From contig NZ_FNZR01000002.1 of NCBI RefSeq assembly GCF_900109365.1, forward strand, positions 124,001-188,000: DNA of 64,000 nucleotides. The letters run 5' to 3'. The position numbers were made by a program, and so were the translations under genes. How positions within the stretch are numbered: position 1 is the stretch's first letter; the number at the start of each line of letters is the position of its first letter. Positions 4,027 through 54,904 of this stretch are shown piece by piece. Source of the DNA: Parapedobacter koreensis (GTDB taxonomy: Bacteria; Bacteroidota; Bacteroidia; Sphingobacteriales; Sphingobacteriaceae). The notes under the pieces are model-generated. The model saw only the letters and a program-made list of their open reading frames with translations. It was not told the DNA's origin and did not search any database.

Positions 4027-4869
4027 CTATGCTTTTTTAATAAACCGTGTAGCCACCCAATTAGCTAACTGCTTGTGGCTTTCATAAAACAGCATATGCT
4101 GGGCACCCGCGGCTTTCAGCAAGGCCAAATCTTCTCCGTCATAAAACCCACTCATATACAATATTCCTCCCGTTTCTAACGACCGGGCATACTGTTCCAG
4201 CTGACTTAGTAGGATGTTTCGGTTGATATTTGCTAATATCACATCAAATTGTTCATCCACAATCAAATCAACAGATCCGCATTTGGCCACGATATTTGGC
4301 TCGTGATTCAAGGCCTTGTTTTCTTCTACGCTGGCAATGCAAACAGGATCATTATCAATTGCCAATAGAGCTGATGCACCAAGCTTTGCCGCCAATATTG
4401 CCAATATACCTGTCCCGCAGCCCATATCCAAGATACGCTTCCCTTCAAAGGCAGTTTCCAGCATGTAATGCATCATCAACGAGGTTGTCTGGTGATGGCC
4501 TGTGCCAAAAGCCATCTTCGGATCAATGACGATTTCATAAGGATATCCGGCCTGGGGAGGGTGGAACGTGGCACGTACATAACACTGGTCTGCCACCACC
4601 ACCGGCTCAAAATTGCGTTCCCATACTGCATTCCAGTTTTGCGATGGAATTTCATTGACCTCATAGGCTACTTGGAAACCAACGGGTTGATGTATCAATA
4701 ACGCCTCCAACGATTGCATATCGAGCTGTTCCGAAGCAATATAGGCCGCAAATCCATTATCCCTCGGTTCGAAAGTATCAAACCCCATATCCGCCAAGCT
4801 GTCAATCAATAGGTCTTGGTGCCAATCTTCGCCGCCTTTGCAAGTGAAAATAACCTCGCTATATCTCAT
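4027..4869 (-). CDS. prmA: Ribosomal protein L11 methyltransferase (PrmA)
   Basis: SAM-dependent methyltransferase that modifies ribosomal protein L11. Of its 280 residues, FGTGHHQTT (121-129) and the SAM-binding ILDMGCGTGILAIL (146-159) are diagnostic, followed by LANINRNIL, the position of the usual substrate-side motif. Length is normal for the short Bacteroidota form. It sits between tpiA (20 bases upstream) and mpl (two bases downstream) on the same strand, probably one transcript. Confidence 0.92.
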   Translation of the reverse strand: MRYSEVIFTCKGGEDWHQDLLIDSLADMGFDTFEPRDNGFAAYIASEQLDMQSLEALLIHQPVGFQVAYEVNEIPSQNWNAVWERNFEPVVVADQCYVRATFHPPQAGYPYEIVIDPKMAFGTGHHQTTSLMMHYMLETAFEGKRILDMGCGTGILAILAAKLGASALLAIDNDPVCIASVEENKALNHEPNIVAKCGSVDLIVDEQFDVILANINRNILLSQLEQYARSLETGGILYMSGFYDGEDLALLKAAGAQHMLFYESHKQLANWVATRFIKKA

Positions 4870-4889
4870 GGAGTGTTTAGTCTATCTTT

Positions 4890-5657
4890 TCAATTATTGA
4901 ATACCTTGGCGATATCAATAAAATCACGCGACTTCAATGATGCCCCACCGATAAGTCCCCCATCGATATCCGGCTGTGCAAATAGTTCGGGTGCATTTTG
5001 CGGATTGCAGCTCCCTCCGTACAGTATCGTTAGCTGGTCTGCGGTATCCTGATTGTACTGTTCGGCCGCTTTGTCGCGGATAAACGCATGGACTTCCTGT
5101 GCCTGTTCCGGAGATGCGGTAAGCCCCGTGCCGATAGCCCATACCGGCTCATATGCCAATACCACGTTGCTGAATGCTTCGTTCGAAAGGTGGAAAACAC
5201 CTTGTTCCAACTGGCCACCAATGACGTCAAAATACCGATCGGCTTCACGTTCTTCCCGTGTCTCACCGATGCAAAAAACAGGAATCAATCCATGTTTCAA
5301 GGCAGCGTCCACTTTTTTGCTGAGCATGTCATCACTTTCGTTGAAGTATGCGCGACGTTCCGAATGGCCCAAAATCACATATTCAGCCCCTGCGGATTTT
5401 ACCTGAACGGCCGATATTTCTCCGGTATATGCGCCTTTTTCCTCAAAGTAAATATTCTGGGCCCCTATTGCAACACGGGAAACACCTTTCGCCAATTGGG
5501 CAATACCATGCAGATGAATAAATGGACTACAAACAACCACCTGTTGCTGGCCCAATACTTCATCCTTGGCCATGTTTACAATCTCAGAAAAAAGACTTAT
5601 CCCTTGTTGGAAGTCAAGGTTCATTTTCCAATTTCCGGCTACAATTTTCTTTCGCAT
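4890..5657 (-). CDS. tpiA: Triosephosphate isomerase
   Basis: Interconverts dihydroxyacetone phosphate and glyceraldehyde-3-phosphate in glycolysis. The 255-residue TIM barrel shows Asn9 and Lys11 (GNWKMN), the catalytic His98 in ILGHSERR, the catalytic Glu170 in VLAYEPVWAIGTG, and the phosphate-binding YGGSCNPQNA. Length and all active residues are normal. It is followed by prmA and mpl on the same strand. Confidence 0.97.
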   Translation of the reverse strand: MRKKIVAGNWKMNLDFQQGISLFSEIVNMAKDEVLGQQQVVVCSPFIHLHGIAQLAKGVSRVAIGAQNIYFEEKGAYTGEISAVQVKSAGAEYVILGHSERRAYFNESDDMLSKKVDAALKHGLIPVFCIGETREEREADRYFDVIGGQLEQGVFHLSNEAFSNVVLAYEPVWAIGTGLTASPEQAQEVHAFIRDKAAEQYNQDTADQLTILYGGSCNPQNAPELFAQPDIDGGLIGGASLKSRDFIDIAKVFNN

Positions 5658-20921: not shown

Positions 20922-20994
20922 GACTCCGTAGCTCAGCTGGTAGAGCAAATGACTCTTAATCATTGGGTCCTGAGTTCGAATCTCAGCGGGGTCA
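20922..20994 (+). tRNA. tRNA-Lys (anticodon CUU), ICE integration site
   Basis: A 73-nt tRNA. Acceptor arms GACTCCG (20922-20928) and CGGGGTC (20987-20993) pair with one G-T. The anticodon loop GACTCTTAATC contains CTT, and the T-loop is GTTCGAATC. No CCA is encoded. The 3' end contains the left attachment core (20984-20995); the ICE begins there but leaves the tRNA intact. Confidence 0.95.
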
Positions 20995-22528
20995 CCTCTT
21001 GGGACAAGTCTAAAAAAGAAAGACTTGTCCCATTTTTTTGGCCTTGTAACTTGTTGTTATTCTGATAGATAAGAGCAATCGCAGAATTTAGTCTCGGAGT
21101 TCGATGTCTTGTTCCGTCAAATTCCAAAAATTCGGGGAACATCGAACTCACTATAAGCCTTTTTTCCTCAATATCGCCGTTTTCATAGCGTCTATCAATG
21201 TTTGCGACCTTTTTTAAGGTAGAAGCTACCAAATCTTTAATTTCCGTTCCTACTACTGCCAAGTCGTTTAATCTTCTTTCCAAAACCTCAATCTTCCCTT
21301 TGGTCAATTTCTTTACTTCTTGGAAATCATCGTCTGCCATTTCCCCATCGGCATTCTTTAATAGTGCATTTTGATAGCGTTTATTCAACGCATCAATCTC
21401 ACCTATGATATTTGTGCGTTCGGTGTTTTGGGCTTTGGTTTTGTTATTAAAGTCTTTTATAAAGGCTTCAATAAAAACATCAACCATACCCTCTTTTGGC
21501 GACATATACCGCAGTTGTTTTAAGAAAGCCTCGTTAGCCGTGTCTGCTTTGAACCGTGTTCCGCAGGGGGAACTACAATGATAGTAATAATAGTAGTTTC
21601 CCATCTTTCCCTTTGAAGCACTTCCAGTCAGCATACGCTCGCATTTAGGACATTTGAGAAAGCCTCTTAGCGGTAAATTGTCCATAGCCACGATTTTAGG
21701 CTTTACAATCCTCTTTCTCCCATCGAGAATATCCTGTACATCGGCAAACGTCTTTTCGCTGATTATTGGCTCATGCTGCCCTTTGACAAAATATCCCTTT
21801 TCCTCTTTATAGGGAGGAATGAATATTTTACCACAGTACAAGGGATTTCGGACAGCTACCCAAAAATTATTTTTGCTAAACCGACCTTTTCCTTCGGCTT
21901 TCTCCCGAACCATTTTCCAAATCTGTTCTGTATTGAAATTATTGGAAACGATTTGTTCAAACGCCCATTTCAAAAGGGGTGCTTCAAACTCGTGGGGTGC
22001 AATGTATTTCTTTTTGCCTTCTGTTATCTTGTTCGCATACCCCAATGGAGCAGTTCCCATATACCGCCCTTCTTTTTTCGCCCTGCGCATTCCGTGAAAA
22101 ACATTTAATGCACGCCTGTCGTTTTCAACTTCCGGCGATGCAAGATAGAATGCAAGCATGATTTTATTTTCGGGAATGGTAAGGTCTAAGGGCTGTTCTA
22201 TTGCCACAGGCTCAACACCGTGCGACCGTAACTGGTTAATCATTTGATAGGCATCCCCTGCGTTCCTACTGAACCTATCCCATTTAGTAAATAATATTAT
22301 TGACCCCGATTTGTTATTCTTTGATTTACGTAGGTTGGATAAATACTTCTGCCACTCTGGGCGTTTGAAAGATTTTGCCGAATGGTCTTCTATGTAAACA
22401 TCCCTTACCGGAATGCCTTTTATCTCACAATATCTTCTTAATCGGTCTTCTTGGTCACGTTGCGAATATCCCTTGTCCGCTTGCTCATCTGTCGATACAC
22501 GTATGTATAAATCTGCCTTTCTCATCAC
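20960..22528 (-). CDS. Large serine recombinase (ICE integrase)
   Basis: A 522-residue integrase of the resolvase/invertase superfamily. The N-terminal catalytic domain has the nucleophile Ser in YIRVSTDEQ (Ser12) and the RFSRN and IALNVF-like region around AFYLASPEVENDRRALNVF. A recombinase domain follows (APLGYANKITEG, NNFWVAVRNPLYCGK), then a zinc ribbon (CPKCERML ... HCSSPCGTRF) and a long coiled coil (about 370-440). The last 11 or so codons are the antisense of the tRNA-Lys 3' end. The reading frame continues across attL, so the C-terminus depends on integration state (see 60196-60360). A 53-residue protein gene lies 23 bases upstream. Confidence 0.92.
   Translation of the reverse strand: MMRKADLYIRVSTDEQADKGYSQRDQEDRLRRYCEIKGIPVRDVYIEDHSAKSFKRPEWQKYLSNLRKSKNNKSGSIILFTKWDRFSRNAGDAYQMINQLRSHGVEPVAIEQPLDLTIPENKIMLAFYLASPEVENDRRALNVFHGMRRAKKEGRYMGTAPLGYANKITEGKKKYIAPHEFEAPLLKWAFEQIVSNNFNTEQIWKMVREKAEGKGRFSKNNFWVAVRNPLYCGKIFIPPYKEEKGYFVKGQHEPIISEKTFADVQDILDGRKRIVKPKIVAMDNLPLRGFLKCPKCERMLTGSASKGKMGNYYYYYHCSSPCGTRFKADTANEAFLKQLRYMSPKEGMVDVFIEAFIKDFNNKTKAQNTERTNIIGEIDALNKRYQNALLKNADGEMADDDFQEVKKLTKGKIEVLERRLNDLAVVGTEIKDLVASTLKKVANIDRRYENGDIEEKRLIVSSMFPEFLEFDGTRHRTPRLNSAIALIYQNNNKLQGQKNGTSLSFLDLSQEVTPLRFELRTQ
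20984..20995. other. attL core
   Basis: CAGCGGG-G-TCAC at the 3' end of tRNA-Lys matches CAGCGGG-T-TCAC at 60349-60360. In a wider 23-base comparison 17 positions agree without gaps. Together with the stranded tRNA terminator at 60365, this places the left end of the integrated element here. Confidence 0.75.
21001..21038 (+). terminator. Element-supplied terminator after tRNA-Lys
   Basis: GGGACAAGTCT (21001-21011) pairs with AGACTTGTCCC (21021-21031), followed by ATTTTTTT. It ends tRNA-Lys transcription in the integrated state. It lies inside the antisense of the recombinase coding end, so element DNA provides a substitute for the native terminator displaced to 60365. Confidence 0.8.
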
Positions 22529-23940: not shown

Positions 23941-24237
23941 ATCTTTATTAAATTTGCTCGGGCAAAAAAGACAGATCCTCCCCAGGTCGGAACAGTCTTT
24001 TTGCGAAAAATGGCACAATCACTATAAAATACGACTGTTTCACTATTTCTTAGATTGTATTTTTAAGATTAGTTGAGGAAGTATTTATACAGACTATAAG
24101 TCAGATAGTAGATGATATTGTCACAAATCCATGACAGAAAACGATATCAAACAGACAAAATGTCCGAAAAATCAGCACGGAATAAAATTTGATATTAACT
24201 AAATGCCGAACTTACTGAAAAGTAGAGTAAGGGAAGA

Positions 24238-24494
24238 ATGTTAATATTTGGCGTTATTACTGCAAAGATAGTTATTTCTGCCCACACTTCCAAACCGTTA
24301 GGGAGTAAGCTGTATAACACTTGCTTGATAATAATAGTCATTACTGTTACATTCATATTGTTCACAAACGAGGGTTTGCCATCAGCAGTGATGGTTGAAT
24401 GGTTGGGGGTAACTCTAACTTCGCTTGTCCGAAAGGCTTGCACGAATTGCCACCTTTGAATAACCTCGGTTCAGGCAATTCGTAATGAAATTAT
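24238..24494 (+). ncRNA. Candidate structured RNA upstream of the reverse transcriptase
   Basis: About 500 bases (24005-24500) without a recognisable gene precede the RT. The last 260 contain stacked hairpins: CAAAC-GAGG-GTTTG (24365-24378), directly abutted by CCATCA-GCAG-TGATGG (24379-24394), then CGAATTGCC (24443-24451) pairing with GGCAATTCG (24474-24482) around a 22-base loop that itself holds AACC-TC-GGTT. A weaker CTTACT...AGTAAG lies at 24211-24231. Several defence RTs (for example DRT2 and DRT9) use a structured RNA placed just here, so this is a candidate template RNA. The boundaries are guesses. Confidence 0.4.
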
Positions 24495-24500
24495 TTGAGA

Positions 24501-25934
24501 ATGGCTTATGAGAAATATTGGAGTTCATTTATAAATAAAGAACTTACATTTTATGATACTGCAAATAGAAAATACCTAAAAAAAGGGTATTTACATTTTG
24601 ACAATCGCATTTGGTTTCCTGAATTTCAGATAAAATTTAAAAGGTTTATAACTAACCCCAATAGTGTTGCATCTCACTCTTTCTTTCCATTCTTGAAAGT
24701 CATTCTCGAAATTAAAAGACGAAAGGGTTACAATCAAAGAAAAAATAAAAGACAGATTAGGATTAAGGAAAGACCTATCTGCTACGCCGCTCACTTTGAT
24801 GCATTGATTTACTCGTTCTATTCAACATATTTATCAGAAAAATATGAAGAATTTGTTACAGAGAGCAGTATTGGCGAATCAGTATTGGCTTATCGTTCTC
24901 TTGAATCATGTAATATTGATTTTGCAAAAGAAGTTTTTGATTATATCAAATCAAAGGGTAAATGTGTAGCAGTAGCTTTAGATATTAAGGGCTTTTTTGA
25001 CAATTTAAATCACGACACTTTAAAAGCGAATTGGCTAAAAGTTATTAACACCAATGAAAATGAGACTTTTGACAAGCTACCTAAAGACCAATTCAAGCTG
25101 TTTAATTCGTTGACGAAATTTGCTTTTATCGAAAAGAAGAATCTGCTCAGTGTATTAGAATTAAAAGAAAAAGATATTCAAAAGAATAGGTTAACAAGGT
25201 TTTGCGACATTCAGCATTTCAGAAATAAAGTAAAGTTAGCATCTACCTCTCCCCTCCAAGTAAATACTGAAAAAGGAATTCCCCAAGGTTCGCCAATGAG
25301 CGCTGTCCTATCAAATGTCTATATGATAGAGTATGACAAATCAATTATGTCTTTAAAAAAGGATTATGACTTTATCTACCGTAGATATTGTGATGATATC
25401 GTTATTGTATGTGATATTAACGACTTACAATTTTTAAAAAACAAACTATACCAAGAAATTGAAAAGCTCGATTTAGAAATTCAGCCTGAAAAAGAGGAAA
25501 TAGTTTATTTCATTAGCGACCCCAAGAAAGGTTTAAGAGGATATGATGATTATAACGGAAAAAACTTTAAAAATTTGCAGTATTTAGGCTTTGAATTTAA
25601 TGGACAAAATTCATATATACGTTCCTCAAGCCTTTCAAGATTTCACAGAAGAATGAAAGCGGGCGTAAGAGAAACGATTAAGCGTGCGTACGGCAAAAAC
25701 GCAAAAGGAAAGGCACTTCTAAAGAAAAAGCTATATAATAGGTTCACACATTTGGGAGGACAGAACTTCTTAACCTATGCTTATCGTGCATCCCAGATAA
25801 TGGATGATTCTGAAACTATTAAGAAGCAGGTGTCCAAGCATTTTGACCACCTAAACGCAAATATTGAGGAAAAAACGGAAAAACATTTAAAAAAGCTAAA
25901 GCGAAAAGGCAAAATAATGAATAAGAAAAAATAA
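24501..25934 (+). CDS. Defence-type (unknown-group) reverse transcriptase
   Basis: A 477-residue single-domain reverse transcriptase. Motif A is ALDIKGFFDNLNHD (about 159-172), the next block is GIPQGSPMSAVLSNVYM (259-275), and the catalytic motif is YRRYCDDIVIV with YCDD at 296-299, followed by LQYLGFEF. The maturase and endonuclease parts of group II introns are absent, and the N-terminal HFDNRIWFPE region and RPICYAAHFDALIYSFYS resemble the bacterial UG/Abi RT groups. A DRT2-like identity is possible but not established. ATG 24501 is chosen over an in-frame TTG six bases earlier. The gene is AT-rich compared with the tra genes. The Shedu-family gene follows after 27 bases. Confidence 0.85.
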   Translation: MAYEKYWSSFINKELTFYDTANRKYLKKGYLHFDNRIWFPEFQIKFKRFITNPNSVASHSFFPFLKVILEIKRRKGYNQRKNKRQIRIKERPICYAAHFDALIYSFYSTYLSEKYEEFVTESSIGESVLAYRSLESCNIDFAKEVFDYIKSKGKCVAVALDIKGFFDNLNHDTLKANWLKVINTNENETFDKLPKDQFKLFNSLTKFAFIEKKNLLSVLELKEKDIQKNRLTRFCDIQHFRNKVKLASTSPLQVNTEKGIPQGSPMSAVLSNVYMIEYDKSIMSLKKDYDFIYRRYCDDIVIVCDINDLQFLKNKLYQEIEKLDLEIQPEKEEIVYFISDPKKGLRGYDDYNGKNFKNLQYLGFEFNGQNSYIRSSSLSRFHRRMKAGVRETIKRAYGKNAKGKALLKKKLYNRFTHLGGQNFLTYAYRASQIMDDSETIKKQVSKHFDHLNANIEEKTEKHLKKLKRKGKIMNKKK

Positions 25935-25961
25935 AAACTACCCTAACCCTAAACTAATCAG

Positions 25962-27206
25962 ATGAAAGGAATTAAACTTATACAAGAAAAAAAACTGGCA
26001 ACCAAAACTACCTTCGTTGTAGAATTTGAGAGAACCAAAACCAATTTTATAGGCAAGGAAGTATTTAATAACGGCACAACTAAGTATTATCCTTTCTACG
26101 AGAAAGATGGGAAAATTGAAAAGAAATACAAATCTATCCATTGTATAACAATCGATAAGGGTGTACTCTTAAAATCAGGTGTTTCTTTTACTGAAAGTAA
26201 GGGCTTTGGTTTCACCAACCCCAAAGGAGTTTCTAATTTGTTTTATTATTTTCAAGACAAGTTTCCTAACGTAAATGAGTTAGTGATATCAAAAACAGCT
26301 ACCTCAAAAATTGATGGCAATAAGTTTATTTTGAATTTTGATGATTTCGTACGATTAGAGGAACAGACAGGTAATTTTGTTGAGAACAAAAAAAATGAGA
26401 GCCAGAATCTATATCAGTTGATACTGCACAAAGTGATTCCTTCGGAAATTGACCCTCCAAACAAACCGGAATATGTCAAAGGTTCTCTAAAACTATTTAT
26501 TGAACAATACAACAATGTTAACTTTTCAGATGAAGAAACTAAAGATTTAACCAATCTTTTGATTAACTCTGGTCTGCCACAGGAAACGCTGATTTCGGCA
26601 AAAACAGACATCGACATTATTTACATTGAAGATATTATTGAAGAATATAAAGGAATCTTAAAACAAACAACCGATACCTCGTCATTAGAGGAACGTTGGC
26701 ATCAGTTTTTCAAAAAGCACACTTGGATATTTTCTCAAATATTTTCCTTTCCTGCGGTCTTTCTTGATGATAAAGTAAATGTTGGCGGACATAATATAGG
26801 TGGAAGTAAAGACAAAATTGTAGATTTTCTATACAGAAATAAGATTAATAAAAACATAGCTTTTATTGAAATAAAAACTCATTTGACACCAATAGTATCA
26901 AATTCTGAATATCGAAACGACTTATACCCCATCAGTAATCAACTAACTGGCGCAATAGTTCAGGTGCTTGACCAAAAGAACAATCTGTTGAAGAATTACC
27001 ACTCTATAGTCGGAACTGAAGCAGAATCATTGAACTCGGTTTGTGTCGTTGTTGCTGGAGATACCTCCAAATTTGGAAAGAAAGGTCAAGATGCCTCCTT
27101 TGAATTATTCAGGTGGAGTAACAAAGATGTGTTGATTATTCCTTTTAACGAACTTCTCGATAAAATAGTAAATCTGCTTGACCTGTTTAAAAAGAAAACG
27201 GTATAA
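25962..27206 (+). CDS. Shedu-family (DUF4263) nuclease
   Basis: A 414-residue protein. The C-terminal half is the Shedu/DUF4263 PD-(D/E)XK-like nuclease: ERWHQFFKKHTWIFSQIF (244-261), DKIVDFLYRN with Asp288, FIEIKTHLTP with Glu303 and Lys305, and the family block YPISNQLTGAIVQVLDQKN (322-340). Residues 1-230 are an uncharacterised domain probably used for sensing or regulation, as other Shedu proteins have variable N-termini. Shedu is a known anti-phage system acting as a DNA nuclease. It is 27 bases downstream of the RT, so the two are probably one operon. Confidence 0.85.
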   Translation: MKGIKLIQEKKLATKTTFVVEFERTKTNFIGKEVFNNGTTKYYPFYEKDGKIEKKYKSIHCITIDKGVLLKSGVSFTESKGFGFTNPKGVSNLFYYFQDKFPNVNELVISKTATSKIDGNKFILNFDDFVRLEEQTGNFVENKKNESQNLYQLILHKVIPSEIDPPNKPEYVKGSLKLFIEQYNNVNFSDEETKDLTNLLINSGLPQETLISAKTDIDIIYIEDIIEEYKGILKQTTDTSSLEERWHQFFKKHTWIFSQIFSFPAVFLDDKVNVGGHNIGGSKDKIVDFLYRNKINKNIAFIEIKTHLTPIVSNSEYRNDLYPISNQLTGAIVQVLDQKNNLLKNYHSIVGTEAESLNSVCVVVAGDTSKFGKKGQDASFELFRWSNKDVLIIPFNELLDKIVNLLDLFKKKTV

Positions 27207-27233
27207 GAGATTGTGAAACCTATGAGATTATAA

Positions 27234-54789: not shown

Positions 54790-54904
54790 ATGCCCAGGCT
54801 ATCGAAAAATGCAGACGGGTCGGGCTATCCGCTGTATCTTTTGCGGATCTGCGAGGACCGCAAAAGGATGTCGCTTCTATCCCTCACGCTGTATGCCGTC
54901 CAAA
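54790..54904 (+). pseudogene. Possible tyrosine-recombinase N-terminal fragment
   Basis: Within the gap between rteC copy 2 and topB, a plus frame starting MPRLSKNADGSGYPLYL and continuing RICEDRKRMSLLSL resembles the Arm-binding start of Bacteroidota tyrosine recombinases (DGtxPIYLRI...KRxxISL). It then runs into the antisense of topB. It may be a scar of a lost integron-like or transposon insertion, or chance. Confidence 0.25.

Follow-up and report, generated by a model that had tools for sequence, protein, structure and literature searches.

The window analysed here, a stretch of 64,000 nt from Parapedobacter koreensis (contig NZ_FNZR01000002.1, positions 124,001 to 188,000; coordinates below are counted from its first letter), holds a reverse transcriptase (RT) gene of the DRT2 family, which is preceded by a probable non-coding RNA (ncRNA) and followed by the gene of a Shedu nuclease. 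The three form a single 3.2-kb cassette within an integrative conjugative element (ICE), and comparison with related elements indicates that the cassette was gained or lost here as one piece. The explanation that we prefer, and consider reasonably probable, is that a DRT2 anti-phage system travels as cargo of the ICE with Shedu behind it in the same cassette, and that its action follows the known biology of DRT2 with variant details. Most likely, the two defence genes are carried together.

The DRT2 and Shedu genes

The open reading frame (ORF) of the RT (24501–25934, + strand) begins with ATG, has an alternative in-frame TTG at 24495 and encodes 477 amino acids. The protein belongs to DRT2 by profile: with the Drt2 model of NCBIfam it reached 479.8 bits, where the cut-off is 390, and with that of PADLOC 480 bits. 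The solved Drt2 structure 9c0i was aligned over residues 25–445 (E 3.5e-84). The YCDD active site occupies residues 296–299. A first-pass annotation, made from the letters alone, had called the protein an RT of the defence type without recognising its family; the Drt2 profile, matched above its cut-off, bears out the call and supplies the name. The same annotation had placed a Shedu/DUF4263 gene 27 bases further on, which the ORFs and profiles confirm.

The Shedu gene (25962–27206, + strand) begins after this 27-nt gap and encodes 414 amino acids. The protein matched SduA_C (DUF4263) with 76.2 bits against a cut-off of 27 and the PADLOC SduA profile with 206.5 bits. The solved Shedu chains 8ti9 (E 1.1e-32) and 8ti8 (E 1.6e-32) align only to residues 198–409 or so, and D288, E303 and K305, which we read from the PD-(D/E)XK motif as the catalytic residues, stand opposite the core of 8ti9. 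As aligned, the nuclease core is intact and shares its D, E and K with the solved proteins, whereas the N-terminal part resembles that of other Bacteroidota Shedu proteins instead. It had been supposed that this N-terminal domain was the protein's own. However, the N-terminal half is not special to the locus, since the SduA profile was matched from residue 90 and three other Shedu proteins (L224, L226 and L229) align from residues 1, 9 and 14, respectively, with no RT adjoining any of them. A search for this Shedu in phages gave no match.

Only a single copy of the cassette is known, which would fit a cargo that is decayed or silent. Against this stand the full length of both ORFs, the retained catalytic residues and an antisense frame, described below, that is open over 91 codons; we regard decay as very improbable.

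One cassette in a cargo slot

The right flank was used for a DNA search in which 15 of 120 genomes, including the window's own, were matched; five related ICEs were compared, while a rearranged one (G022) and partial matches were left out. All five align up to 24008–24017 and resume at 27215 (27238 in L255), with 115–144 nt between. The homology of L253 may, by eye, reach about 24031. The cassette is thus placed at 24018–27214 (+ strand), its left end being uncertain between 24009 and about 24031, and since the five related ICEs are without this stretch, ncRNA, RT and Shedu are taken as one piece. To this extent the earlier reading, in which RT and Shedu form one unit, is supported: ncRNA, RT and Shedu are present or absent together. 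It is a single event, and joint action of RT and Shedu is not implied by the cassette. Three of the five related elements carry other extra DNA (about 0.6–1 kb) slightly upstream, so that the site is a cargo slot. Near the cassette ends, CACAATC (24014–24020) and its reverse complement GATTGTG (27209–27215) were seen.

The probable upstream RNA

Between the end of the upstream ArdA gene (23909) and the ATG of the RT lie 591 nt with no sense-strand ORF of at least 80 amino acids, in keeping with the gene-free interval of about 500 bases described before. The putative ncRNA is placed at 24199–24480 (+ strand, about 280 nt, both ends estimated from relatives). Its 3' part weakly matches Rfam RT-12. 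The match covers all 117 positions of the model at 24362–24479 and ends 21 nt before the ATG of the RT. RT-12 is taken to be a DRT2 RNA because it was found with 72.9–84.9 bits directly upstream of the RT in four of 11 DRT2 loci scanned (L180, L181, L182 and L186); in another of these, L189, RT-13 was found instead. The 3' scaffold (24362–24482, + strand) consists of hairpins, among them a tower formed by CGAATTGCC and GGCAATTCG, and of a possible pseudoknot CGAGG/CCTCG, proposed from complementarity alone. Its fold has a minimum free energy of −39.4 kcal/mol (z −2.36), and five of 200 shuffles were equally stable, so the stacked hairpins reported earlier in front of the RT are real features of the predicted fold.

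On the 5' side, a handle hairpin with the perfect 6-bp stem CTTACT/AGTAAG lies at 24211–24231 (+ strand); such a stem was reached in 0.0475 of 400 shuffles. At the equivalent position, L001, L097, L135 and L179 show different perfect stems of 6–8 bp. Upstream of the putative ncRNA, AATAAAATTTG resembles, by eye, the TAnnTTTG box before the ncRNA of L135 and L179. An alignment of five scaffolds had a mean identity of 62% and was rich in gaps. An Rfam scan of 15 close loci together found no RNA of this kind. Taken together, the upstream region probably is a DRT2 ncRNA. The earlier suggestion that template RNA is kept there therefore holds in part: an ncRNA is probable and a scaffold of the RT-12 type was matched, if weakly, so that structure of a conserved kind appears to lie upstream. 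The more telling part, however, is the antisense strand at a greater distance from the RT. An exact direct repeat, TCACAAA (24121–24127 and 24362–24368, 241 nt apart), is found around the ncRNA; it was rejected as the jump repeat discussed below, as its spacing is not divisible by 3.

The proposed template unit and the predicted Neo protein

In the parts of the published work that describe the DRT2 of Klebsiella pneumoniae (KpnDRT2), copying of a 120-nt template produces tandem repeats, whose antisense reading has a promoter and a frame without stop codons (PMC11100668, PMC12039810). A template unit of the same length is predicted in the window at 24239–24358 (− strand), delimited by TGTT, which is repeated at 24239–24242 and 24359–24362. 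The reverse complement of 24239–24358 would be the Neo repeat, with an open frame of 40 residues, MNVTVMTIIIKQVLYSLLPNGLEVWAEITIFAVITPNINN. When the unit is concatenated, one of the three frames is open, and an open frame was obtained in 0.071 of shuffled units. An antisense promoter of the Bacteroidota type, TTTG-N20-TATCTTTG (24263–24294, − strand), lies whole within the unit. Only in the concatemer does this promoter come to precede, by 26 nt, an ATG of the open frame; the junction is needed just for the coupling of promoter and ATG. The pattern TTTG-N19-21-TAnnTTTG has three matches on both strands of the 64 kb and occurred in a fraction of 0.0007 among 3000 shuffles of the unit.

The antisense opening is not peculiar to the window. 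At about 90–210 nt upstream of the RT, the longest stop-free run on the antisense strand exceeded that on the sense strand in 74 of 89 DRT2 loci, the window included (Wilcoxon p 5e-11, although the loci are not independent); the run of the window extends over 91 codons (P 0.0225, 2000 shuffles). A scan of the 89 loci for a unit with an open frame, an ATG and a sigma-70-like promoter gave 24 loci on the antisense strand and five on the sense strand. With the Bacteroidota promoter in its place, the numbers were six (the window, L001, L131, L142, L160 and L175) and one, and a third count, for which unit lengths other than multiples of 3 were used and the frame was not considered, was four. Upstream of the RT in L142, L160 and L175, there are candidate units in which the junction forms a Bacteroidota promoter ending in TATCTTTG, like the −7 box of the window.

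Three DRT2 loci from viral contigs (IMG/VR), L180–L182, served as controls. Under the ACA rule, each has a 117-nt unit in which exactly one frame is open. TTGACA-N17-TATAAT is split over the junction in L180 and L182, two of the three by the strict pattern; the published rule was thus recovered. These loci resemble the window in their RTs (37–39% identical) and, as far as the weak match of the window goes, in the RT-12 scaffold, whereas their units are of the ACA type and the octameric membrane protein 8xMP, rather than Shedu, is found downstream of the RT.

Closer relatives of the RT (40–44% identical) are found in Bacteroidota at L135, L179, L097 and L001. By eye, all four show a handle hairpin followed by AGTT, the template, a second AGTT, about 5 nt and the pseudoknot strand. 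L001 has a 138-nt unit in which one frame is open and across whose junction TTTG-N20-TAACT|TTG arises; L135 and L179 have 144-nt units, each with one open frame. This suggests that a Bacteroidota clade may have replaced ACA by a jump repeat of the GTT type, and the sigma-70 promoter by a Bacteroidota one. Compared with KpnDRT2, as far as the published descriptions used here extend (PMC11100668, PMC12039810), the window would share the RT family, an upstream ncRNA of about 280 nt and a unit of 120 nt in which one antisense frame is open. It would differ in its jump repeat (TGTT rather than ACA) and in a −33/−7 promoter that is whole in the unit, whereas the sigma-70 promoter of Klebsiella is split by the junction.

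Several other candidates were set aside. TATTTCTG (24270–24277) was tried as the Neo start, for which relatives show CATTTCTG, and was rejected: its distance from the RT is 225 nt, compared with 117–169 nt for the starts of the relatives, and it reads ATA. The micro-repeats ATTACTG (84 nt) and TTACTG (84 and 129 nt) give open units, which are still possible, but have no adjoining handle hairpin or pseudoknot strand. A first scan, with unit ends limited to 24251–24300, gave one open candidate, 24197–24292.

A number of results count against this reading of the upstream region. The RT-12 match is weak, with 17.9 bits against a gathering threshold of 44.2, and the putative ncRNA as a whole (282 nt) has a z of only −1.23, 20 of 200 shuffles being as stable. 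A model built from L135, L179 and L097 (R1) missed the scaffold of the window as well as L001 and the viral loci. In view of the weak match and the miss by R1, the scaffold call rests on the RT-12 match, its position and the anatomy. With regard to the unit, its choice was made when the open frame had already been seen, and the openness of the frame is therefore no independent test. An automatic scan accepted 15 units in the window, 24239–24358 among them, and the boundaries are therefore a best estimate that rests on anatomy seen by eye. A search of the window for two in-frame ACA motifs that enclose an open unit, as ACA-1 and ACA-2 do in KpnDRT2, found none; we regard ACA flanks as typical of the Klebsiella-like clade and not of the whole DRT2 family. 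Among the relatives, L135 and L179 have no strict promoter, and the AGTT unit of L097 (142 nt) fails, a GTTA unit (138 nt) having been found afterwards. The upstream region looks different in L100 (RT 39% identical) and its group (L099–L105 and L136, RTs 35–39%).

Such results would also suit a DRT2 relative that makes, instead of Neo, some other complementary DNA (cDNA) product from this ncRNA, the antisense frame being a by-product of composition. The ends of the template are not firmly placed, ACA motifs are missing and 15 units are candidates; in addition, a passage of the published work states that annotation of Neo is more challenging in divergent DRT2 clades, outside the Klebsiella-like one (PMC11100668). 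Yet composition would have to account for antisense openness in 74 of 89 loci, and for a unit of 120 nt that has both a promoter and one open frame, a design that recurs in L001. This alternative is judged unlikely.

If the DRT2 explanation is right, events can be sketched by analogy with KpnDRT2. Upon infection, the RT would copy the template of about 120 nt repeatedly, jumping at the short repeat TGTT. In the double-stranded concatemer, the promoter would come to precede the ATG of a frame without end, and translation of this frame would give the Neo protein, which arrests the cell. Shedu is probably co-transcribed with the RT, given the 27-nt gap and a search that found no terminator-like site between the two genes. 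By cutting linear DNA, it would add a further defence that does not depend on DRT2.

Does the pairing recur?

A closer relation of the two proteins can be imagined. A Bacteroidota-type DRT2, with its GTT-type repeat and a complete −33/−7 promoter usable after concatenation, might form one layer of a functional module, and Shedu, by recognising cDNA ends or the double-stranded concatemer, the other. Shedu could act as a safety lock that removes or restrains stray cDNA in healthy cells, or it could be switched on by the cDNA during infection. The 27-nt gap and the shared cassette are consistent with such a module. According to the parts of the published reports that bear on it, Shedu senses DNA ends (PMC12904381), and the DNA made by DRT2 is long and linear (PMC12039810); coupling is therefore a legitimate hypothesis. 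Other DRT2 loci also have defence-type genes close downstream, such as DUF4357 in L159 and L168. The published work describes DRT2 as a system that lacks any additional protein gene (PMC11100668), whereas Shedu follows the RT in the window.

Surveys of other loci speak against the module. Shedu was found in none of 88 other DRT2 loci, whose downstream flanks spanned 0.46 to 6 kb. Pfam SduA_C was absent from 44 downstream neighbours lying on the same strand within 500 nt (among the 25 of 48 Pfam families listed), and the top PADLOC Shedu model matched only the Shedu of the window (P0002) among 45 proteins (25 of 162 families listed). The 88 do not include L141, L164 and G389 (equal to L012, L138 and L002); the locus set leaves out 19 of 27 plasmid records, two of three phage records, one place in G853 and the fragment L183, and near-identical loci (L010/L014, L180–L182 and L135/L179) were retained in the counts. 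Conversely, an RT adjoins Shedu in one of 45 other Shedu loci and a DRT2 in none. The 45 are what remains of 50 places once the window and four places with weak or partial matches are taken out; a home-made profile marked Shedu in 37 of them, the RT search spanned all 45 stretches, and L218, with an RT 10.7 kb from Shedu, was not counted as adjacent. The one case, L217 (genome G164), has an RT followed by Shedu on the same strand as in the window, 112 nt apart. However, this RT is of the UG39 type (599.5 bits) and has PrimPol as its partner, in a one-strand cluster of RdrB, PrimPol, UG39 RT, Shedu and AbiH (3526–11655 of L217), and the adjacency looks like ordinary clustering in a defence island.

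At the level of genomes, Shedu is no commoner with DRT2 than elsewhere in the family sample: it occurs in five of 39 genomes with full-length DRT2 (at least 289 bits), or four of 38 without the window's own, and in 40 of 360 others, as counted by hand from two samples that apparently are one draw of 399 genomes of the family. A plasmid DNA search with the whole locus and viral scans with single proteins of the window gave no match. The idea that RT and Shedu are a conserved module is thus not supported, homologues of the RT occurring without Shedu in the flanks covered throughout the 88 loci. A literature search found no article that treats DRT2 together with Shedu, although one that names DUF4263 and reverse transcriptase exists; this agrees with the earlier remark that no such pairing was known. 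With one insertion event only, and with Shedu relatives that align from residue 1, 9 or 14 and have no adjacent RT, we consider a functional DRT2–Shedu module rather unlikely and retain the explanation of two defence genes carried together.

The 44 downstream neighbours of DRT2 include RmuC (five), 8xMP (three), DUF4357 (two), Abi_2, Mrr and an N6 methylase. The 279-amino-acid DUF4357 gene (PADLOC PDC-S14) follows the RT in two different genera, at +2 nt in L159 (3036–3875) and at −4 nt in L168 (3024–3863), and is a better candidate than Shedu for a recurrent partner of DRT2. RmuC stands directly after DRT2 in L138, L162, L163, L165 and L166 (family f54), and a PADLOC entry RTasRmuC exists; instead of marking a partnership, the position may be a hotspot of insertion into the chromosome. 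In L180, L181 and L182, the downstream gene encodes 8xMP. In L135, which has the nearest RT relative, the RT is followed at 2 nt by a gene of 314 amino acids (4368–5312) without Pfam or PADLOC match; in the close relative L179, another gene comes next.

The surrounding element

Upstream of the cassette lies a serine recombinase gene (20922–22528), of which the 3' end overlaps tRNA-Lys; this is probably the attachment end of the element. Genes for TraJ, TraM, TraO and TraQ are also present around the locus, and on the strength of these genes and of the recombinase at tRNA-Lys, the surrounding DNA is an ICE, which we take to be of the CTnDOT kind. Elsewhere in the window, an Rfam Flavo-1 RNA was found at 54814–54894 (− strand), its 52.9 bits exceeding the gathering threshold of 42.

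Implications

The window and some of its relatives suggest how a Bacteroidota clade of DRT2 may build Neo, namely with a repeat of the GTT type and a Bacteroidota promoter, and for the window an exact Neo repeat of 40 residues is predicted. A cassette that carries a DNA-making and a DNA-cutting defence gene also offers a clean case for asking whether the two help each other.

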